This document shows positions 10,322-31,204 of a stretch of DNA of 32,983 bases, in pieces. The notes below the pieces were generated by a model that searched no databases, was not told the origin of the DNA, and was given only the letters and a program-made list of their open reading frames with translations. The stretch's first letter is position 1. Each line of letters opens with the position of its first letter. The position numbers were made by a program, and so were the translations under genes. Origin of the DNA: a virus; the IMG/VR virus record IMGVR_UViG_3300030333_001444, positions 787 through 33,769 of that record; one strand, given 5' to 3'.

Positions 10322-13300
10322 ATGCCGTTAATTAAGAATGCTGCAGCAACGCTAAACCAAGGGGTAAGTCAACAGACTGAATCCCAACGGTATCCTTCAC
10401 AGGCGTCTGAACAAATCAATGGCTACTCTTCTCACATAAAAGGGTTAGTCAAACGTCCTCCTACTAAGCACATAAGCGAGATAGGAGTCAACGCCACCAC
10501 AGGCACACAGAGTTTCATGCATCTCATGTACAGGGATGATGCTGAACAGTATGCTATTGTGGTCAACAAGGGTACAGAGACTAGGATTACCGGAGTTGAT
10601 CTAACCACAGCAAGAGATTGGGACGGGGCGGGTAACGCAGCTACAATCACAGGTTCACTCAAGTACACCAATGGCTCTGATCTTTTCACAGTAAATGATG
10701 CCGTCCAGTTTACCCGTGTTGAACTAGGTGACAGGTTTCCCACAGGCATAAAGGAGGGTGAGACATACTATGTCCACTCTGCTGGAGGCGACGGTACAAA
10801 CCGCTGGCTCATCCTGAAAACAACCACAGCTACTTCAACAGCTACCAATTACTTAACTCTGGGACACGTTGAGTTAACGTCAGTAGAACTAGGTTCTTCA
10901 ACAGCAGGTGATGAGTACAAAGCAGGGATGCTTATTGAATCTGTTCGCAATGCAGACGGGTCTTGGGTTGATGGCGTACTGACGGTTCGCTTCAGTTCAC
11001 CTAATTCAGGAACAGGACACTCGTTTTCCACTGGTGACTTCATCAACATTAAGAATTTACAAGGCACTGCAGCTTACATCTTAGGAGGACGTGAGTTAGT
11101 AGAGTTGAGCCAGCCTGCCAAAACAATGGGAGGCACAAACCTACGGTCTAATGAAACCTCTTTTAAGTTCTGGCTCAAGAAACCTAAAAGCATTTCAGCA
11201 GTTGCCACTAACTTTGGGTATCGCGTAGACGGTGACCAACTGCTTCAGATTGAAGATTATGCCAAGCGGTTTGAAGAAGGGGAATCAATCAGTGACTACA
11301 TTGATTTTTACTCTACTGCGACTACGTTTTCAGCAGATGGTAACGTACTGACAAAAGCATCAGGATCATTTGACGTCACCACACTTCCTGTAGGTAGCCT
11401 CATACGAGTAGGTAGCAACCCTAACAATCCAAGAGCCATAGTTACTGCTGTTTCTTCTACTGAAATAACATTAGCTGAAGGCATAGATGAGTTGTTTGAT
11501 AGCTTAGGGTCTGACGCCAATAATTCAGGAGACACGTTCACTGTATACTACTGGGCCAACCCCAAGAACACTTCAAAGTTCCGAAGCATTGGTCAGAACG
11601 ACTACAGGGAGACGAATGACTTTGCATATGTAGGTGATGACGGAGGAACCTGCAGTGCTACCAGTAGTTCTAAAGGCACTGGCCCTTATGTCACTGACCT
11701 TACATCAGGCACTACGTATCCCGTGGTTGCTGACAACACTTTTGGAAACCCATACAATTACTTACTTCAGGTCAACAACCCTGCAGATGAACTAAAGGCC
11801 AAAACAATCGGAGACTCTACGTTCATCGTAAACAAAACAAGAGAAGTACAAGCGAACGATTTCCCTGAACACATCCCAAATTACGAAGCATTCATCCGTG
11901 TCAAAACAGCAGACTACGGAAAGTACTACAGGATCAAAGTAGGTGCTGATGCTGTAGAGCGGACGTCTACTGCAGCTTCTGGAGAAACAGCCAAGGAAGC
12001 GTCAGTTCTTTTATATGGCAACAGCAGTACAGGAGCTAACGTGACTTCTCGTCCTGTCTGTAAGGTACGTGCTAAGAAAAAGGGAGGCCACTTCAATAGC
12101 TACCAGATTAGGCTGATGCAAAACTGGGCCTACGAAAGAGACCCTATTGAGGTTTTTACCGCTGATGGAGTCTTGGCCTCTTCCCAAGCTAGTCTCGGTA
12201 ATTCATACAAAGACATACTGGCAGGAGACGTCACAACATCAGGAGGTAAGTACCTAGAGAGTTCCAAACAAGACTTACGTAAAATACAAGCAGGTCTCCA
12301 GCTTGACGACACACAGAATGTAGAAGGAGACATAAGAACAGTAACTCAAGACCTTGACACAAAGTTCGTAGCACTACACTACAGCACTTCAGGTACAGGT
12401 CAGATTTTTATATGGGTTAACTTCTACTGGGCGCAGAATAACAGCAAGGTGACTGACAACTTGACCACTGTAGGTCACGTCAAGAATGCATTTGCAGAAG
12501 CGGCAGGTCAGTTAAGTGAAGAGTGGGAAATAGTACTTTGTGATGACACAGGCAAAGCTGCTGATGAAGCTGGATTCAACAGCGGAACAGTGTCCCAAGA
12601 AAGCTGGTACTTTTTAGATTCAGAACTAGGTTACACAGTGAGTCCAGACATCGCTGTAAATCGTGAAGAGTACGGGGACACTGAAAAGTATGAACACAAC
12701 GGAAAAGAGTACAGAATAGGACTTGATTATATTGTCAGGAGTTTCGGTATGTCGCTAGATGCTTGGGGAGGCCGCGACAAAGAGTACGTTAACCAAGGAC
12801 TTCAGTCGCCTTCTACACCTATTGCACGTTTAAACAGAGGACGTTCATTCACATCTGGAGGTGCAGGCACAGCTACACAAACCCGAATAAGTGGAGCCAA
12901 TAACAAAGTGTTTGATGGTGAGTTCTTTTACAAAACCCCAGTGTGGACAGGAAAGGATGAAGATCAAAAAGCAATAGGAACTGAAAGAATTGCAGAAGTT
13001 CTAGGAAGCAACGCTTTGATTATAGAAGGCAACTACCATGTACAAGGAGGTACAGGCAAGTTGTCACGTGCAGACGGAAGAACACTTCAAGATGATCAAG
13101 AAGTGTACAACGCCAGCCACAAGGAAGAAGCCATTGGACTGACGTTTAATCGGGCTGCTGTTACTGTAAACCAAATTTCAGGGTCAGGGATACCTACAAC
13201 CACTCTCAACACGCAGTTCTCCCAAGACCTTAACAAGGATAAGTTTCTTACCAAGTTCAGCAGTACTACAGGACAGACCTTAAAGAACCTGACGTGGGAG

Positions 13301-15052
13301 GTAACTCAATTAGGAAATGTCATTGCCATCAGGAATGCACAAAGAGTTCCTTTTGAAATACAAGTGTCTGATGACTTAGGCGGCGATGGCTTGGACTTAA
13401 CTTACTTTGAGGTCAGTGAAGAAGAAGAACTACCTTCAATATGCAGGCATGGCCATGTAGTTCGTGTCATTGGTCACGCACGTGAACAGGCTGACGATTA
13501 CTACTTACAATTTGTAGCTGACAAAGCTGACTCATCACAACTTCGGCATGGAAGGTGGGAAGAGTGTGTAGGCTTTGACACAGCAAAAGGCGTCGTAAGT
13601 GAAACCCTCCCCGTCATGTTGCAGAGAAACTTTAAGTCTGACGGGTCTAAAGAGTTTCGTTTGAAACACTGCAGTTGGAACAACCGCATAGCAGGAGACA
13701 AGTACACCAACCCTACTCCTTCTTTTGTAGGTAGCTTTATTAATGACATCTTCCTGTTTAAAAACAGACTAGGATTCCTCGCAGGCGAGAGTGTTATCCT
13801 TAGTGAAGCTGGTGAGTACTTTAACTTCTTCAGGAACACGGTTGCTTCCTTTCTGGATTCAGCACCGATTGATGTATCACTGTCGTCTGAAAAAGTATCT
13901 ACACTGCATTCAGCATTGACCTACGCTGACCGCTTGATTCTGTTCAGCAGGAGCCAACAGTTTTCACTGCAGGGGTCACAGTACTTATCTCCTAAGACCG
14001 TAAATGTCACACCCACTACTGACTTCCTAAACACAGGAGTGAAGCCAGTGTTGTCAGGTAACTCTGTGTTCTTTGCATTCCCTCGTACCAACTTCGGAGG
14101 AGTTGCTGAATACTTCCTGTCCAAGGAACAACTGGATAGCTTAGAAGCACAGGACATCACGGCACACGTTCCTAAGTACATCAAAGGTAACGTCATTAAG
14201 ATGACTACCTGTTCTTCTGAAAATGTCATGGCAGTGCTGACTGATGACACAGGATCAGGGAAAATCTACGTCTACAAGTACTTTACCAATAACGGTCAGA
14301 AGGTGCAGTCAGCTTGGTTCACGTACACCACAGGTGATTCTAATTCACAGATTCTCAGCATAGAATTTATTAAAAATATCCTGTACCTGATAATCAAAAG
14401 AGGAGGCACGGTGTACATTGAGAAGCTGACCTTTGAAGATGATCAGGTTGACACAGGAATGGACTATGAAGTCTTGCTGGATCGCAGGTTGTCCAAGAGC
14501 CAACTAACTGCAGGACTGACAGCCAACACAGTTACCCTGCCTTACAATGTCACCGCCAACACAAGGCTAGTGACGACAGACTCTAAACCATTCACCAGTT
14601 CAACCACAGGTAACAAAACATTTACTGTGGCTGATCTCACCTTGAATGACAATTCTGTTGATTTCTTTGTAGGAGAATTGTATGACTTTGAGTACACGAT
14701 GAGTCGTCCCTACCTGAAAAGCGACAGAGTCACCGAGTCAGGACGCTACCAGATACAAAGAGGAATCATAGAGTACGCCAACGCTAGATCATTTGAAGTT
14801 GACGTCATTCACAATCCTAACATGAGTAGCCCCAACAAGGTTACTGTGACTAACACCTACGCAAACGATGCCTTACATTCGTTACTGACAGGTAGTGCGG
14901 ATTTACAAGATGGGCAGTACAAGTTTGGCGTACAAGAAAAACACGACAAGCTGCAGATAAAACTAAAGAACGGGACACCGTACCCGTCTGATTTTCTCAG
15001 CATAGATTACGAAGCAGTTGCTTATGGCAGAGGAACACGATGGAGAGGTTAA
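10322..15052 (+). CDS. Tail tubular protein B / nozzle (T7 gp12-like), about twice T7 length
   Basis: 1576 aa against 794 in T7. The start matches gp12 (NQGVSQQTESQRYPSQASEQ; RPPTKHI). The block IGDSTFIVNKTREVQAND (about 494-511) matches T7 VADYTFIVNR. From about residue 1040 to the end the match is nearly collinear: VRVIGHAREQADDYYLQF, FVGSFINDIFLFKNRLGFLA, GESVILSEAGEYFNFF, APIDVSLSS and DITAHVPKYI. The extra length is concentrated in two places, about residues 95-490 and 545-1040, rich in Ser/Thr/Gly and probably beta-structured. In the family this protein forms the hexameric nozzle where fibres attach and the channel closes. The frame is unbroken. It overlaps the next gene by 29 nt. Confidence 0.94.
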   Translation: MPLIKNAAATLNQGVSQQTESQRYPSQASEQINGYSSHIKGLVKRPPTKHISEIGVNATTGTQSFMHLMYRDDAEQYAIVVNKGTETRITGVDLTTARDWDGAGNAATITGSLKYTNGSDLFTVNDAVQFTRVELGDRFPTGIKEGETYYVHSAGGDGTNRWLILKTTTATSTATNYLTLGHVELTSVELGSSTAGDEYKAGMLIESVRNADGSWVDGVLTVRFSSPNSGTGHSFSTGDFINIKNLQGTAAYILGGRELVELSQPAKTMGGTNLRSNETSFKFWLKKPKSISAVATNFGYRVDGDQLLQIEDYAKRFEEGESISDYIDFYSTATTFSADGNVLTKASGSFDVTTLPVGSLIRVGSNPNNPRAIVTAVSSTEITLAEGIDELFDSLGSDANNSGDTFTVYYWANPKNTSKFRSIGQNDYRETNDFAYVGDDGGTCSATSSSKGTGPYVTDLTSGTTYPVVADNTFGNPYNYLLQVNNPADELKAKTIGDSTFIVNKTREVQANDFPEHIPNYEAFIRVKTADYGKYYRIKVGADAVERTSTAASGETAKEASVLLYGNSSTGANVTSRPVCKVRAKKKGGHFNSYQIRLMQNWAYERDPIEVFTADGVLASSQASLGNSYKDILAGDVTTSGGKYLESSKQDLRKIQAGLQLDDTQNVEGDIRTVTQDLDTKFVALHYSTSGTGQIFIWVNFYWAQNNSKVTDNLTTVGHVKNAFAEAAGQLSEEWEIVLCDDTGKAADEAGFNSGTVSQESWYFLDSELGYTVSPDIAVNREEYGDTEKYEHNGKEYRIGLDYIVRSFGMSLDAWGGRDKEYVNQGLQSPSTPIARLNRGRSFTSGGAGTATQTRISGANNKVFDGEFFYKTPVWTGKDEDQKAIGTERIAEVLGSNALIIEGNYHVQGGTGKLSRADGRTLQDDQEVYNASHKEEAIGLTFNRAAVTVNQISGSGIPTTTLNTQFSQDLNKDKFLTKFSSTTGQTLKNLTWEVTQLGNVIAIRNAQRVPFEIQVSDDLGGDGLDLTYFEVSEEEELPSICRHGHVVRVIGHAREQADDYYLQFVADKADSSQLRHGRWEECVGFDTAKGVVSETLPVMLQRNFKSDGSKEFRLKHCSWNNRIAGDKYTNPTPSFVGSFINDIFLFKNRLGFLAGESVILSEAGEYFNFFRNTVASFLDSAPIDVSLSSEKVSTLHSALTYADRLILFSRSQQFSLQGSQYLSPKTVNVTPTTDFLNTGVKPVLSGNSVFFAFPRTNFGGVAEYFLSKEQLDSLEAQDITAHVPKYIKGNVIKMTTCSSENVMAVLTDDTGSGKIYVYKYFTNNGQKVQSAWFTYTTGDSNSQILSIEFIKNILYLIIKRGGTVYIEKLTFEDDQVDTGMDYEVLLDRRLSKSQLTAGLTANTVTLPYNVTANTRLVTTDSKPFTSSTTGNKTFTVADLTLNDNSVDFFVGELYDFEYTMSRPYLKSDRVTESGRYQIQRGIIEYANARSFEVDVIHNPNMSSPNKVTVTNTYANDALHSLLTGSADLQDGQYKFGVQEKHDKLQIKLKNGTPYPSDFLSIDYEAVAYGRGTRWRG

Positions 15053-24393: not shown

Positions 24394-24957
24394 ATGGGCT
24401 ACTCAAGATACATAGGAAGCGGCACAACAACAAGCGAAGGGGGTTTGGTAATTAGCGTGTCCAACCCAGATAATGGCAGTTTTAACTGGCTATCCCCTGA
24501 TCACATTCAAATACGAATTAGCCAGCCCAATCAAAGTGTGGCTGATTTTGAAGCTGCTTTGACAGCAGGAACTGTGAGTTTGTTCAACCCTTCTGACGGT
24601 TATACTTTAGTAGGTTCTACGTTAACCTTCAGCGGTCTGAACGCATCAGTTGTTTACAGGTTTCAAGTGAAGCGGGTAACTCCAAAATTGACACACTATG
24701 TGAACTTTCAAGCAGGCGCTCCCTTGACCGAAGTAGACCTTGACAATAGTAATAAATACACTCTATTTAGGGCGCAGGAGTTAGAAGATGACATTGACGA
24801 AAAAACAACAACACTGTCGCTGACTAACATGAAAACAACGGCAGGCATAACAGGCGATTTTGTGGACACTACCAGCGCACAAACCGTCACTAATAAGAAT
24901 TTCGCTGACTCAACATCAGTGTTTGATGGAGGGTCTTTAACCTTTCAAGGCGATTAA
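24394..24957 (+). CDS. Tail fibre adaptor, free-standing T7 gp17 N-terminal-like domain
   Basis: 187 aa. The core (STLTFSGLNASVVYRFQVKR, then LTHYVNFQAGAPLTEVDL at 99-116, then NKYTLFRAQELEDDI) corresponds to the N-terminal part of T7 gp17 that binds the tail. In T7 this is fused to a long fibre; here the gene stops soon after, with the tail ending VTNKNFADSTSVFDGGSLTF, a fibre-repeat-like piece that may hold the next subunit. It is thus a tail-side adaptor, and the distal fibres are separate genes downstream. AGGA precedes the start. Confidence 0.8.
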   Translation: MGYSRYIGSGTTTSEGGLVISVSNPDNGSFNWLSPDHIQIRISQPNQSVADFEAALTAGTVSLFNPSDGYTLVGSTLTFSGLNASVVYRFQVKRVTPKLTHYVNFQAGAPLTEVDLDNSNKYTLFRAQELEDDIDEKTTTLSLTNMKTTAGITGDFVDTTSAQTVTNKNFADSTSVFDGGSLTFQGD

Positions 24958-24981: not shown

Positions 24982-26619
24982 ATGGCAAATACATTACAAG
25001 TAAAACGTCACGATACGTACAACGTAAGCAAGAACCCCACTACCAATCAGTTAGCTGAAGGTGAGTTGGGCTGGAACAACCACGGTGGCAGGCTGTGGAT
25101 CGGAAAAAAGACATCAGGCAGCAATGTTGATGCTTATGAAATTAACCCAACAGCAAGTACATCTGCTAAAGGTTTAGCTTCATTTTCTAACAGCAACTTT
25201 TCAGTCACTGCTGGAGGTCAAGTTTCTATTACTGGCATCGCTACCTCTGCGCTGACAGGAACGATATCCAACGCACAGTTAGCAGGCAGTATCAGCAACG
25301 ACAAACTTGCAGGCAGCATCGCCAACAACAAGTTAGCCAACAGTTCAATTACTATAGGAGGAACAGCAACTGCACTAGGAGGCACAATAACCGCCCTGAC
25401 TGCGTTGACTGATCTTGATCTTACTTCAGGTAACAAAACTATTCTTGATGGTGTTGGTTCCAATACGCTGACAATAGGTGCAGCAGGCACGACTGTTAAG
25501 ATTGCAGGTAACCTGACTGTTGATGGCACACAAACAATTATTAATTCTACGACACTTACAGTTGACGACGATGTAATTGAAATTAAAGCAGGTAACGACT
25601 CACGTGCTAACGCTGACGGCTCTGGAATTAAGATTCCCTGTTCTGGTTCTGATTCAGACATCACTCTTGGTTGGCAGGACAGCACTTCATCTTGGTACTC
25701 ACCAGAGAACATTAAGTCCAATAATCAGATTATCGCAAGTGGCGGTAACTCCAGCCAATGGAACACTGCGTACAGCGACCGCTATAAGTGGGATGGTGCT
25801 GTCGGTGGGGTACTGAATGCAGCAACAGCCCGTGCCAGCCTTGATCTTGAAATTGGTACAGATGTACAGGCTTACGACGCTGGATTGACTGCTATTGCAG
25901 GACTGTCTGATGCTGACGGTAAGTTCATCGTAGGCAGTGCATCAGGCTGGGTTGCAGAAGATGGAGCCACAGCACGTGCTAGTTTAGGCGTAGACCAAGC
26001 AGGTACTGACAACTCCACCAATGTAACTCTTGCTGGCTCTTACGATTACATTACTGCAGGAGGCACGGGTAACCAGACCTTAACTCTTGGTCAAGTCAAC
26101 TTGACTACTGATGTAACCGGAAGTTTGCCTGACGGAAACATTGCTTCAGCAGCTACTTGGAATGCCAAACAAGCTGCATTAAACTTTGGAATCGCAGATG
26201 GGAACGCGCTTGAGGTTGACGGTTCCCCAAATGACAACGAGTACGCTAGGTTCACTTCTTCAGGTTTAGAAGGAAGGACTGCATCTGAACTGAAGTCTGA
26301 CTTGAGTTTAGGCAGTCTCGCTGACGCAAGTACCATCAGCAACAGCAACTGGTCAGGCACTGATCTTGCCGTGGTTAACGGTGGTACTGGTTCTTCTACT
26401 GCAGAGGGTGCGCGAACTAACCTCGGAGTGACTGCTTCATTTGTACAGAACAATCACGCTAGTTACGATTCTTACAACGTCACTACAACAGGTAAGCAGG
26501 TAATGGCTAACGTGACTGTCAATAACACAGGTCACGTCACAAGTGTTACTAAACGCACTACTACTTTTATTGAAGATGGTGACACTATTGACGGCGGTAC
26601 TGCCACTTGGACTAACTAA
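24982..26619 (+). CDS. Tail fibre protein 1
   Basis: 545 aa, Ser/Thr/Gly/Asn-rich. The N-terminus (MANTLQVKRHDTYN, then QLAEGELGWNNHGGRLWIG) is the common phage-fibre head domain with the AEGELxxN..GRLWIG pattern. It is followed by short repeats typical of trimeric fibre shafts: SNAQLAGSISNDKLAGSIAN (about 93-112), TLTIGAAGTTVKIAGNLTVD, and the ATARASL units. The C-terminus (VNNTGHVTSVTKRTTTFIED) resembles beta-helix fibre ends. The same head domain begins the next gene, so the two are paralogues. No Shine-Dalgarno site is obvious; the leader is an A-rich run containing ACCCCTCT. Confidence 0.86.
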   Translation: MANTLQVKRHDTYNVSKNPTTNQLAEGELGWNNHGGRLWIGKKTSGSNVDAYEINPTASTSAKGLASFSNSNFSVTAGGQVSITGIATSALTGTISNAQLAGSISNDKLAGSIANNKLANSSITIGGTATALGGTITALTALTDLDLTSGNKTILDGVGSNTLTIGAAGTTVKIAGNLTVDGTQTIINSTTLTVDDDVIEIKAGNDSRANADGSGIKIPCSGSDSDITLGWQDSTSSWYSPENIKSNNQIIASGGNSSQWNTAYSDRYKWDGAVGGVLNAATARASLDLEIGTDVQAYDAGLTAIAGLSDADGKFIVGSASGWVAEDGATARASLGVDQAGTDNSTNVTLAGSYDYITAGGTGNQTLTLGQVNLTTDVTGSLPDGNIASAATWNAKQAALNFGIADGNALEVDGSPNDNEYARFTSSGLEGRTASELKSDLSLGSLADASTISNSNWSGTDLAVVNGGTGSSTAEGARTNLGVTASFVQNNHASYDSYNVTTTGKQVMANVTVNNTGHVTSVTKRTTTFIEDGDTIDGGTATWTN

Positions 26620-26637
26620 TCCACACGTGAATGAACA

Positions 26638-29526
26638 ATGGGAAATACATTAAAACTAAACCACCATGCTACTAGTGGAAAAACGCCTACTAATCTTGCG
26701 GCTGGCGAGGTTGCAATCAACAGCGCGAACAAAAAGATATGGGTAGGAACCAACGGTACTACTGCTGGTCAGGTACTTGTATTTGACCATTCTATTTACA
26801 GTACCGACCTAACAGATAACAACGATAACTATTATCTGACGGGAATCACTAAAAGCAGCAACACGCTGACGTTTGCTGTTTCAGGGACTTCTAATGTTCA
26901 GTACACGTTTGGATCAAACGCTTTTACGAGTACGTCGATTCCTACGAACACCAACCAGCTTACTAACGGGGCTGGTTTTGTCACTAACAGCGGTGTAACC
27001 GGAATCAGCACAAGCGCAGGGTTAGACGGTTCAGGTACGTCAGGGACGGTGAACGTCAGCCTTGATCTGTCTGAATTAACTGACATGACGGCAGACGTAG
27101 TCGGGGCTAACGATGAGTTAATTCTATTAGATTCAGGTGCTGAACGCAGGAAAGCTATTAACGAAATAAAGTTAAGTCAGTTTAATAATGATGCTGGATT
27201 CATAACTGATGGTAACACCGGATGGAACAACTCATACGGGTTCGTTACTTCCAGCGGTGTAACGCAAATTAACACAGGGGCTGGATTAGACGGTGGTAGT
27301 TCCAGCAGTACAGTTTCTCTTAGTCTTGATCTGTCTGAACTAACTGACATGACTGACAGTTGGTCTAACAGTACTGATGAATTCATCGTCCTAGACAACG
27401 GAACACAAAAGAGAAAGCTGTCTTCAGAGATATTCGGTTCTAATGCTTTTAACAGTACTACGATCCCAACAAACACGAATCAACTGACAAATGGCGCTGG
27501 CTTTACTACAGCAGGAGGCCATAACCATGACAGCCGCTATTATACTGAAAGCGAAGTAGACACATTGCTTGCAGGTAAGTCATCTACTAGTCACAACCAC
27601 AACTCCACATACCTTTCACTTACTGGAGGTACTCTAAACTCTGGAGGCAACGATACTACATTAGCAATTCAATGTAAGGACGCAGGTCGCGCTATGCTTC
27701 AAATTGGAGATAGCACAGATGGAACCCAAGGGACGGGCGCACTTGAGTTGACTCAAGATGGAAGCTACGGAGGAGGAATGTCGTACAACGGTGACAACAA
27801 TCCTACGTTTGCAAGTGGCGAGACTTCGGATAACATAACCTTTTATAGGTTAAATAATGGTACAAGAACTGAAGTATTTCATTATCCTTACAATAGCAAC
27901 ACAGTAGGCTTTAATGGTGCGCTTACTTGGTCAGGCGGTGGTTCAGCAAATGCAAACACAGCTTATGGTTGGGGAAATCACGCAAGCGCAGGATATTCAA
28001 CCGCAAGTAATTCACAGACCTTTACGAATAAAGGAGGTAATATATCCCAATGGACTAATGACTCTGGTTATACCACCAATGTCGGTGACATCACAAACGT
28101 AAGTGTTGGAACTGGTTTAGACGGAGGAGGATCAAGCGGCGACGTTACTATAAGTCTTGATCTGTCAGAATTACCTGACATGACGCAGTCTTGGGCTAAC
28201 GGTTCAGACGAGTTTATTGTCTTAGATGGAGGCACTCAGAAGCGGAAGCTATCTTCAGAAATCTTCGGTTCTAACGCTTTTAACAGCACTACTATTCCGA
28301 CAAACACGAACCAACTAACAAACGGTGCTGGGTTCATTACAGACGGTAACACAGGGTGGAACAATACGTATGGATTTGTTACCTCAAGCGGAGTCACTTC
28401 AGTTGCTTCTGGTACGGGAATAACCGGAGGAACAATCACAGGAACAGGAACCCTTTCGTTAGCGTTAGGAGAGTTAACTGACATGACTTCATCATGGGAC
28501 AACTCTGTTGATGAGTTCATTGTTCTTGATAACGGGAGCCAAGCCAGAAAGCGTTCTGCTGAAATCTTCGGGTCTAATGCGTTCAATAGTACTACGATTC
28601 CGACTAACAACAATCAGCTTACCAATGGGGCTGGGTACACTACTAATGTTGGTGACATTACAAACGTAAGTGTCGGGACAGGCTTAGATGGAGGAGGTTC
28701 AAGTGGCGACGTTACCATAAATCTTGATTTGTCGGAACTGCCTGACATGACTCAGAGTTGGGCGAATGGCTCAGACGAATTCATTGTGCTAGATAGCGGT
28801 ACTCAGAAGAGAAAGTTATCTTCGGAAATCTTTGGTTCTAATGCTTTCAACAGTACTACGATCCCTACAAATACTAATCAGCTTACCAACGGGGCTGGTT
28901 TTACTACAGCAGGAGGTCACAATCACGACAGTCGTTATTATACTGAAGGCGAAGTAGACACCCTGATTAGTGGGTTTGTGTCTAGCAGCGGCGTAACGAG
29001 TGTTTCAGTAGGAACAGGTTTAGATGGGGGCGGTTCTAGCAGTTCAGTTACCGTAAGTCTTGATCTGTCAGAACTGGCAGACATGACTCAGAGTTGGACA
29101 AGTTCTGATGAATTCATTGTACTAGATGGAGGCGTTCAGAAAAGGAAACAGTCCTCAGAAATCTTCGGTTCCAATGCTTTTAATAGCACAACAATCCCCA
29201 CAAATAATAACCAGTTAACCAACGGCGCAGGCTACAGGACATCTGCACAAGTAGACACCGCAATTGGTGACTACGCAGGGACTATAGCTGCCACAGGTGC
29301 TTCGGCTTTATTTGGAGGAGGCTCAAGTGGCGTGACTAACCAAGGGTTAAGCAGGGACGTCGCTTACAAAATCATGACCAACACCAACTCCTCAGTAGCT
29401 TGTGTGACAACAACAGGCGGGAGTTCAGAGTATTACCTTCGCTATAAAAATGGAGGTAACTTTTCTTGGGAACGCATTGCGTGGAACCACATTGAAGGAA
29501 TGAGTACATTAGACCCTTTACCGTAA
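26638..29526 (+). CDS. Tail fibre protein 2, long repeat-containing fibre
   Basis: 962 aa. The head domain (MGNTLKLNHHATSG, AAGEVAINSANKKIWVG) matches that of the previous fibre. Six copies of a larger unit follow, each with an SLDLSELxDMT block, a DEFIVLDxGxQKRKxSSEI block and a 23-residue block starting GSNAF and containing NQLTNGAG. Between copies 2 and 3 lies a unique stretch of about 170 residues (GGHNHDSRYY, LSLTGGTLNSGG, GWGNHASAGYSTASNSQ). The C-terminal about 80 residues (VAYKIMTNTNSSVACVTT, YLRYKNGGNFSWERIAW) are unique and probably the receptor-facing tip. The protein should form a trimeric beta-rich shaft. The next gene starts 1 nt before this one ends. Confidence 0.88.
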   Translation: MGNTLKLNHHATSGKTPTNLAAGEVAINSANKKIWVGTNGTTAGQVLVFDHSIYSTDLTDNNDNYYLTGITKSSNTLTFAVSGTSNVQYTFGSNAFTSTSIPTNTNQLTNGAGFVTNSGVTGISTSAGLDGSGTSGTVNVSLDLSELTDMTADVVGANDELILLDSGAERRKAINEIKLSQFNNDAGFITDGNTGWNNSYGFVTSSGVTQINTGAGLDGGSSSSTVSLSLDLSELTDMTDSWSNSTDEFIVLDNGTQKRKLSSEIFGSNAFNSTTIPTNTNQLTNGAGFTTAGGHNHDSRYYTESEVDTLLAGKSSTSHNHNSTYLSLTGGTLNSGGNDTTLAIQCKDAGRAMLQIGDSTDGTQGTGALELTQDGSYGGGMSYNGDNNPTFASGETSDNITFYRLNNGTRTEVFHYPYNSNTVGFNGALTWSGGGSANANTAYGWGNHASAGYSTASNSQTFTNKGGNISQWTNDSGYTTNVGDITNVSVGTGLDGGGSSGDVTISLDLSELPDMTQSWANGSDEFIVLDGGTQKRKLSSEIFGSNAFNSTTIPTNTNQLTNGAGFITDGNTGWNNTYGFVTSSGVTSVASGTGITGGTITGTGTLSLALGELTDMTSSWDNSVDEFIVLDNGSQARKRSAEIFGSNAFNSTTIPTNNNQLTNGAGYTTNVGDITNVSVGTGLDGGGSSGDVTINLDLSELPDMTQSWANGSDEFIVLDSGTQKRKLSSEIFGSNAFNSTTIPTNTNQLTNGAGFTTAGGHNHDSRYYTEGEVDTLISGFVSSSGVTSVSVGTGLDGGGSSSSVTVSLDLSELADMTQSWTSSDEFIVLDGGVQKRKQSSEIFGSNAFNSTTIPTNNNQLTNGAGYRTSAQVDTAIGDYAGTIAATGASALFGGGSSGVTNQGLSRDVAYKIMTNTNSSVACVTTTGGSSEYYLRYKNGGNFSWERIAWNHIEGMSTLDPLP
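26911..29235 (+). repeat. Six-copy coding repeat in fibre protein 2
   Basis: A 69-nt (23-codon) block beginning GSNAF and ending NGAG(F/Y) occurs at 26911-26979, 27436-27504, 28267-28335, 28570-28638, 28834-28902 and 29167-29235. It is the most conserved part of a longer repeat unit of roughly 90-110 residues. Copies 2, 3 and 5 encode the same 23 residues. Copies 2 and 3 nevertheless differ at 11 of the 23 codons, all synonymous. Confidence 0.93.
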
Positions 29527-30491
29527 TGGGATTAGTAAGTTCAGACATACTTTTAATTGAAAGAGGCGGCACGGTTTACAGAGAAACTTTTGGCAACCGC
29601 GCTAACATAGAAGACAGCGATATACTGTTGGTTGAAGCGGCGTCTACTGACAATAGTAGAACAAACGGTAAAGTGTACAGATGCACCTATGGCGATTGGA
29701 AACAGGATATTTCTGGAGGAGGTGGAGGAGGAGGTGGCGGTGGCGCTACGCACGGCTGGGGATCGTCTAACACATCAATTAGCGGAGCGATTGATAATCT
29801 GACCTCCCAGTACAATCAGGCAGATTCAACACTCCCCTATAAAATCTTTTCACAATCCATGTCGGTTACAGGGGGAACTTCTGTTACTGGCAGGCTGTAC
29901 ATAGGAATGAGGATGCGAGGAACTACCACGTATTACCATGATTGGTCTCTAGCTATTGTTCAGATACTTCAAAGCAACGGTACATCCTTCAGGACTGACA
30001 GTACTTACTCAAATGGATATGATTGGAATGCTAGGGACTCATTAACTTCTCAATACGCAACAAGCGGCTTTTACAACTGGAGTACTAGCACAGGTTTCAC
30101 ACATTCTTATTCTGTAGACCCTAGTACTCATAGTTATGTGAGTATAGGTTCAGCTACTAACGCTAGATGGTCAAGAGGCTTGAGTACAGGCTCTACGTAC
30201 ACAGGGGCAGCAGACGGGATTTATTCTCCTTCAGGTTATTCAGGAGGAGGGGGATCAATTCTCCCTGCTTCTGGAACTGTTTCCCAAACTTCAAGCACTC
30301 CTTTCCTTTTTACAGAAACGTCAGGAAGCGGATATTTAATAGACGTCACTACGATATGGCTTAGGTCTCCTGAAATAACCGTTTATAATGGCGATATTTT
30401 GAGGATGGCATACCTTGGCGTCGGGGGAAGTAGCTCAACAAATGGAGTAGGACGCTACGATAATGACACTATTTACTTTAGATTTAAATGA
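29526..30491 (+). CDS. Fibre-associated protein with 10-Gly tract
   Basis: 321 aa. Residues 5-20 (SSDILLIERGGTVYRE) and about 31-59 (DSDILLVEAASTDNSR, then GKVYRCTYGDW) are two copies of a short beta motif. An uninterrupted run of ten glycines follows (29715-29744). After it comes a Ser/Thr/Tyr/Gly-rich region, probably the beta-structured binding part. The neighbouring gene carries the same motif and a Gly tract, so they are paralogues. I do not recognise the C-terminal domain. Position at the end of the fibre module suggests a short spike or fibre tip. The start overlaps the fibre-2 stop (TAATG) with no clear Shine-Dalgarno site. Confidence 0.82.
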   Translation: MGLVSSDILLIERGGTVYRETFGNRANIEDSDILLVEAASTDNSRTNGKVYRCTYGDWKQDISGGGGGGGGGGATHGWGSSNTSISGAIDNLTSQYNQADSTLPYKIFSQSMSVTGGTSVTGRLYIGMRMRGTTTYYHDWSLAIVQILQSNGTSFRTDSTYSNGYDWNARDSLTSQYATSGFYNWSTSTGFTHSYSVDPSTHSYVSIGSATNARWSRGLSTGSTYTGAADGIYSPSGYSGGGGSILPASGTVSQTSSTPFLFTETSGSGYLIDVTTIWLRSPEITVYNGDILRMAYLGVGGSSSTNGVGRYDNDTIYFRFK

Positions 30492-31204
30492 GTACACCTG
30501 TAGGAACAGATAGAATTTTAGTTGAAGCGAATTCAACCACAGGAGGCCGTACATCAGGTCAAATTTACAGGGAAACCAAAGCCAACTGGGATACAGCCAC
30601 CGGAACCGGAGGTGGCGGCGGGGGAGGCGGTGGTGGTGGCACTGCTACTAACAATCTCGCCATTCAGTTTGCTCACTCCTCTATGGGTGGCTATTCTAAC
30701 GCTGGTTCTCATTTCTATGCGTCAACAGGCAAACTGTATTATCATCGGCTTGATTCTAGTGGCGCGTATACTTTGTCATCCACGACCACAAACAGCAGTT
30801 CAACAAGGCCAAATACAAAATTAAAAATAGATAACACGTGGTATGAAATTGCCGCAGGCACAGCGTATACTCAAACTACGGGTGCTGGCCCTTTTAACGT
30901 CTACTATTACAGAAGTATGACCAGTTGGACTCTTACTGCCTCTGAGATTCAAACTGCATGTGGGGCGAGTTCAGGAACCATAAGCGGGATTGCTGTTAAA
31001 ATGGATGACGCACCTTCGAGGACTATGCCTAACCATTACATTGGTGTGAAGTTAGTCAGTTCAGGAAATGCAGACACAAACAACTCAGGAACCAACAACG
31101 GCAGTTACACTCAAGTATCTTTTGCAAACCCAAGAAATTGGGTTGGGGCGACTGAAGAGTCGTATGTAGAGATAACATTTTCAACTAACATTTCATGGAG
31201 TTAA
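30488..31204 (+). CDS. Fibre-associated protein with 11-Gly tract
   Basis: 238 aa. It starts with one copy of the short motif (DRILVEANSTTGGRTSGQIY, then RETKANW) that occurs twice in the previous gene, then an 11-glycine run (30608-30640). A Ser/Thr/Tyr-rich part of about 185 residues follows and ends EITFSTNISWS. The distal part shows no obvious identity to the previous protein's, so they share the anchor and hinge but differ in the presumed binding part. It overlaps the previous gene by 4 nt (ATGA). Confidence 0.82.
   Translation: MSTPVGTDRILVEANSTTGGRTSGQIYRETKANWDTATGTGGGGGGGGGGGTATNNLAIQFAHSSMGGYSNAGSHFYASTGKLYYHRLDSSGAYTLSSTTTNSSSTRPNTKLKIDNTWYEIAAGTAYTQTTGAGPFNVYYYRSMTSWTLTASEIQTACGASSGTISGIAVKMDDAPSRTMPNHYIGVKLVSSGNADTNNSGTNNGSYTQVSFANPRNWVGATEESYVEITFSTNISWS

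Follow-up and report, generated by a model that had tools for sequence, protein, structure and literature searches.

A gene labelled fibre 2 carries six repeats which are near-identical in protein and differ widely in DNA, and the question it raises is whether such copies are simply old and held in place by constraint on the protein, or whether their codons have been selected to keep the repeats from recombining. A sequence-only reading had suggested the former and offered the latter as a possibility. The gene lies in a window of 32,983 nucleotides (the whole stretch of DNA analysed), which belongs to a virus record of 33.8 kb from a T7-like podovirus, a marine phage. Our analysis makes it very probable that the repeats are ancient mosaic tail-fibre cassettes which have undergone birth-and-death evolution with neutral saturation of synonymous sites, and the pattern can be accounted for without invoking selection on the spelling of codons.

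The repeat gene and its setting

The gene set of the window includes primase/helicase, DNA polymerase, exonuclease, head-tail adaptor, major head, tail and internal virion proteins, and the nearest annotated matches of the connector were from rhizobial, Pseudomonas, Bordetella, Roseobacter and Pelagibacter phages. The repeat gene sits among tail genes by the PF03906 fibre anchor, with an internal virion protein upstream, and the order is anchor protein, fibre-1-like gene, repeat gene and then two smaller proteins that contain runs of glycine (Table 1). That the gp17-type anchor is a protein of its own suggests that it serves as an adaptor for the assembly of both fibre 1 and fibre 2. The fibre-1-like gene showed 80.6% and 78.8% DNA identity over two stretches to the related contig L018. 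The two smaller proteins (29526-31204; 321 and 238 aa) are consecutive and share a similar N-terminal phrase (SDILLVE/DRILVEA...), followed by a long glycine run and then a distinct C-terminal domain, and they are possible tip proteins. Elsewhere in the window, a tail protein of 1576 aa (10322-15052) matches PHROG 457, with a best-scoring stretch of residues 856-1571 only and its N-terminal half mostly outside that stretch.

The repeat unit is about 81 aa long and ends in a 24-aa core, FGSNAFNSTTIPTNTNQLTNGAGF, of which there are six copies of the form FGSNAF...NQLTNGAG[FY], in addition to one divergent unit (W1b). In only one close relative, L001, a 7.2-kb fragment, are repeats of this type arranged as an array, and there the single-copy cassette stands ahead of the W2-type unit. 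The part of this cassette at residues 363-429 of the repeat protein (27724-27924) was also found in cyanophage tail fibres, with 58% identity for S-WAM2 and 52% for MED4-213.

Table 1. Positions of the repeat gene, its parts and the neighbouring fibre genes in the window
Feature	Position	Core	Strand	Evidence or nearest relative
Short stand-alone protein of 187 aa, T7 gp17-like fibre anchor domain	24394..24957		+	Pfam PF03906 Phage_T7_tail, E 5.8e-9
Fibre-1-like protein, 545 aa, 5' of repeat gene	24982..26619		+	PHROG tail fibre match, E 4.7e-5
Repeat gene (fibre 2), 962 aa: cassette array between conserved N- and C-termini	26638..29526		+	ORF; ends common to L001, L018, L043, L059
Core copy W1 (FGSNAFTSTSIPTNTNQLTNGAGF)	26908..26979	26908-26979	+	Orthologue is L001 copy 1: 1 aa and 2 synonymous differences
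Divergent unit W1b (...DELILLDSGAERRKAINEIKLSQFNNDAGF...)	26998..27216 (about)		+	L001 without W1b
Repeat unit W2	27259..27504	27433-27504	+	Nearest L001 aa 325-405, 0.87 nt identity; best paralogue 0.73
Single-copy cassette (HNHDSRYYTESEVDTLL...DSTDGTQGTG...GNISQWTNDSGY)	27523..28077		+	L001 aa 121-305 = window aa 296-480
Repeat unit W3	28093..28335	28264-28335	+	Whole unit 0.84 to L001 aa 514-594; best same-gene copy 0.81
Repeat unit W4	28396..28638	28567-28638	+	Nearest L001 aa 426-506, 0.88; next L079 (another phage) 0.72
Repeat unit W5	28660..28902	28831-28902	+	Nearest L001 aa 514-594, 0.85; W3 0.81
Repeat unit W6	28996..29235	29164-29235	+	Nearest L001 aa 514-594, 0.76; W5 0.75
Conserved C-terminal part of repeat gene	29311..29526		+	87.7% DNA identity to L018 C-terminus

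The whole repeat protein gave no Pfam match above the cut-off, and 63 copies of the repeat module searched against Pfam, the lambda Stf repeat included, matched no family and gave two isolated weak matches. The module found no match among PDB sequences and no usable match among PDB folds by structure search, and a structure search of BFVD returned weak matches to phage tail-fibre proteins, the best named-phage match being the fibre of phage P12053L. A search of IMG/VR with the module alignment gave 391 candidate related stretches, and a scan of bacterial genomes for the module gave two partial matches only. Among annotated phages, the DNA search returned only a 58-nt match, and in the protein search only the single-copy cassette was matched (cyanophages and a Vibrio phage); the module had no match there, though the low-complexity filter may hide some, since P12053L carries part of it. 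A single-chain model of the module (pLDDT 78, pTM 0.56) showed a short helix and two strands, located near EFIVLD and GTQKRK, with the conserved core in a low-confidence tail. On the basis of gene context and the weak family matches, the repeat protein is presumably a trimeric fibre.

Codon spelling of the repeat copies

The combination of near-identical protein and widely differing DNA was confirmed. The blocks at 27436 and 28267, which had first drawn attention, do encode the same 23 residues with 11 codon differences, corresponding to 11 nucleotide differences, all at third positions. This is not the extreme pair, as the identical 24-aa cores at 28264 and 28831 differ at 16 codons and those at 28567 and 29164 at 18. 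The repetition in protein is far above chance; for example, residues 471-571 are identical at 93/101 positions to the copy 189 residues downstream.

At residues identical between copies, the codon was the same in 376 of 921 codon pairs (0.408), in comparison to a random codon identity of 0.345 +/- 0.015 when synonymous codons were permuted within the repeat gene and of 0.348 when the codon usage of 14 other window genes was used. The paralogues are slightly above random (z about +3 to +4), and the codon spelling is thus no more scrambled than chance and slightly more alike than random. This small excess indicates that saturation is incomplete or that there has been limited gene conversion (W3/W5, and a patch at aa 540-572 of L001), since either residual ancestry or conversion from time to time would produce it, and weak selection on spelling may be hidden beneath the residual relatedness.

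If synonymous changes had been favoured for breaking the identity of direct repeats and so preventing the deletion of fibre segments, codon identity should be below random and exact runs should be broken up. The longest exact repeat within the gene is 20 nt, and among 48 repeat genes from related loci it is the 7th most diverged, both of which agree with such selection, but the codon identity is above random and the exact runs reach at least the expected length. Given the codon matches, there was one run of at least 20 nt in the window gene in comparison to 1.1 expected (z +0.48), and there were 480 in comparison to 379 expected for 44 genes together, with one of the 44 having a run z below -2. 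That gene (L037:14470-16587; z -3.05 in one of 44 tests) has exact runs shorter than expected, probably by chance or through regular spacing.

Across the 48 repeat genes, codon identity was spread over a continuum (0.37 to 0.97), and in none of them was it significantly below random (z below -2). Such a continuum is expected for repeats of differing ages, and the window gene is at its old end. Relatives moreover retain exact repeats of 41 to 104 nt, and cassettes have been shuffled at the repeats. The proposal of selection against recombination between direct repeats was therefore not borne out, and we regard it as highly improbable.

Descent and shuffling of the cassettes

Divergence between units was expressed as pS and pN from Nei-Gojobori counts. 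Among the window paralogues, pS was 0.72 to 0.96 (mean 0.79) and thus saturated, in comparison to a pN of 0.02 to 0.26 (mean 0.16) over the unit and of 0.04 between cores. The NG86 dS was infinite for most paralogue pairs, and dN/dS, reported only where dS could be estimated, was 0.01 to 0.06, far below the values near 1 which would have spoken against constraint. The saturated pS and low pN uphold the view that these are old repeats under strong protein constraint.

Between the window and L001, orthologous units had a pS of 0.28 to 0.52, except for the last unit, W6, which was also saturated. Five of six repeat units were nearest to a copy in another phage, W6 marginally so. For W4, the six nearest copies include none from the same gene, the best same-gene copy being below 0.68; W1b was nearest to a copy in L096. 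W3 is a mosaic, with its 5' part nearest to units 4 and 5 of L001 and its core and 3' flank nearest to unit 2. The maximum-likelihood tree grouped W2 with L1.2 (support 97), W4 with L1.3 (87) and W3 and W5 with L1.4 (88), and joined the last unit of L001 with L059 (99), to which it is 0.84 identical and nearer than to any paralogue. The nearest-copy identities together with the tree indicate that the duplications predate the split of the window phage and L001.

Ongoing gene conversion keeping the protein identical is a further explanation to be weighed. There are short conversion-like patches, such as L001 aa 540-572, which corresponds to window aa 513-545 and matches W3 at 0.92. However, synonymous sites between copies are saturated and the nearest copies stand in another genome, which is the opposite of concerted evolution as defined in PMC10457151; the nearest copies in other phages argue that there is no strong concerted evolution or general homogenisation. 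Concerted evolution as the main cause was rejected on the saturated pS, the nearest copies elsewhere and the tree, and we hold it to be very unlikely; slow or patchy gene conversion may have occurred.

The number of copies varies, with seven units in the window and six in L001 by HMM, and one module copy each in L018, L043 and L059, as read from translations. The L001 gene is the window gene re-ordered: aa 1-117 of L001 correspond to window aa 1-117, 114-305 to 289-480, 299-388 to 184-273, 382-532 to 544-694 and, downstream, 604-647 to 458-501 and 811-865 to 849-903. The switches in order fall in NGAGF, NDSGY, FGSNAF and SLDLSELPDM. Close to the switch at the first join, DNA identity between the two window copies, which may not be the true parents, is limited to runs of about 5 and 3 nt. 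Shared cassettes out of order were also found by BLAST in other contig pairs (e.g., L047/L051, L049/L063, L042/L044) with 84-90% DNA identity.

In comparison to the window and L001, three relatives show conserved ends with an exchangeable middle. In L018, where both gene ends and the neighbouring genes are kept, the middle is occupied by a different repeat family (SAGSGLSLSGTTFSHSDTSSQGS...), and L043 and L059 have window-type gene ends around a third family (DGGLTQKNFTTTLKNKLDGIA...). The DGGLTQKNFTTTLKNKLDGIA shafts (L059:3955-6522; L043:4264-6531) are themselves near codon saturation, at 0.41 and 0.43 in comparison to 0.36-0.37 for random spelling. The N-terminus of the repeat gene is nearer to L001 (pS 0.13, versus 0.44 to L018) and its C-terminus nearer to L018 (pS 0.26, versus 0.53 to L001), as are the downstream genes, and these different nearest relatives indicate that the repeat gene is itself a mosaic. 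Judged from these sequences, recombination in the array has clearly been frequent. The divergence between such contig pairs is within the tolerance of phage recombinases, which are reported to act on DNA that is not identical; recombineering was effective up to a mean divergence of about 17% (PMC3945230).

It could also be that several copies were imported from other phages, instead of being duplicated within this lineage, and had separate codon histories. This is compatible with descent from ancient cassettes and is quite possible, if somewhat short of an even chance. It agrees with the proximity of W1b to L096, with the second-nearest copy of W4 in L079 and the resemblance of the last L001 unit to L059, both nearer than any paralogue, with the differing nearest relatives of the gene ends and neighbour genes (L001 versus L018), and with the out-of-order sharing of cassettes among many phages. 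Most window units nevertheless group in the tree with the L001 set and not with unrelated phages, and W3 and W5, with their 93/101 identical residues, look like true internal duplicates.

As both the window and L001 are metagenomic contigs, misjoining of repeat copies by the assembler could in principle produce the same re-ordering. Exact repeats within each gene are, however, at most 20 nt, and the k-mers usually employed in assembly are longer than this; in addition, substitutions peculiar to the L001 copies flank the joins on either side, and similar shuffling is seen in many independent contigs. An assembly artefact is thus extremely improbable.

On the preferred explanation, the repeats are ancient cassettes that form the middle of a tail-fibre-like protein. 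The analysis showed that strong purifying selection holds the protein sequence of each copy and that synonymous drift has run to saturation, until any two copies resemble each other about as much as would two random spellings of one peptide. It also showed that the copies are older than the split between the window phage and L001, and that the array changes as whole cassettes are exchanged, lost, gained and put into a new order, between different phages as well, with switches occurring in the conserved joint motifs NQLTNGAGF, WTNDSGY, FGSNAF and SLDLSELPDM. We infer that these joints may let any cassette follow any other in the presumably trimeric fibre shaft, and that selection for a working fibre would retain only in-frame joins at the joints. 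More tentatively, and with considerable doubt, the joints might serve as a common protein connector across many marine phages, with joins needing little DNA identity, so that a shared pool of cassettes could be shuffled although homology has decayed to the level of random codons.

Significance and comparison with known systems

A striking pattern has thus been tested and given an ordinary explanation, providing a phage example of two known kinds of evolution, birth-and-death repeats and mosaic tail fibres. The comparison of codon identity with permutation within the gene is a simple test which separates old repeats from selection on spelling. The analysis also documents a repeat module, present on several hundred candidate stretches of uncultivated viruses and unmatched in Pfam and PDB, and shows its cassettes being shuffled from one phage fibre to another; this helps in reading and assembling the fibre genes of marine phages.

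Among repeats within one gene, polyubiquitin is a close comparison. Birth-and-death evolution under purifying selection was argued for it by Nei et al. 2000, as discussed in PMC10457151, which itself argues for concerted evolution of ubiquitin. The window gene resembles polyubiquitin under the birth-and-death view in its near-identical protein repeats in one gene, high synonymous divergence and lack of homogenisation, and differs from it in being a phage structural protein whose cassettes are also shuffled between genomes; the concerted evolution favoured in PMC10457151 is not seen in the window gene. A survey of protein repeats (PMC5120217) described accelerated divergence between copies in one protein, with individual repeats conserved between orthologues. 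The window repeats are likewise individually conserved between orthologues, but their copies are near-identical in protein despite saturated synonymous sites.

Among phage fibres, the tail fibre of the isolated Celeribacter phage P12053L (YP_006560940.1) shares the joint and the first part of the cassette (LTNDAGYTTNVGDITNVSAGTGLSGGGASGTVTIS); it then runs on with a different sub-cassette (HADTSSQGSVNNSG...) and lacks the DEFIVLD...SEIFGSNAF part. The mosaic tail fibre genes of P2, lambda (stf), T4 and relatives, cited in PMC3945230, are similar to the window gene in their conserved ends, exchangeable middle and exchange between distinct phages, and the window gene differs from them in exchanging small repeated cassettes within a single gene, with joins in a recurring protein motif.
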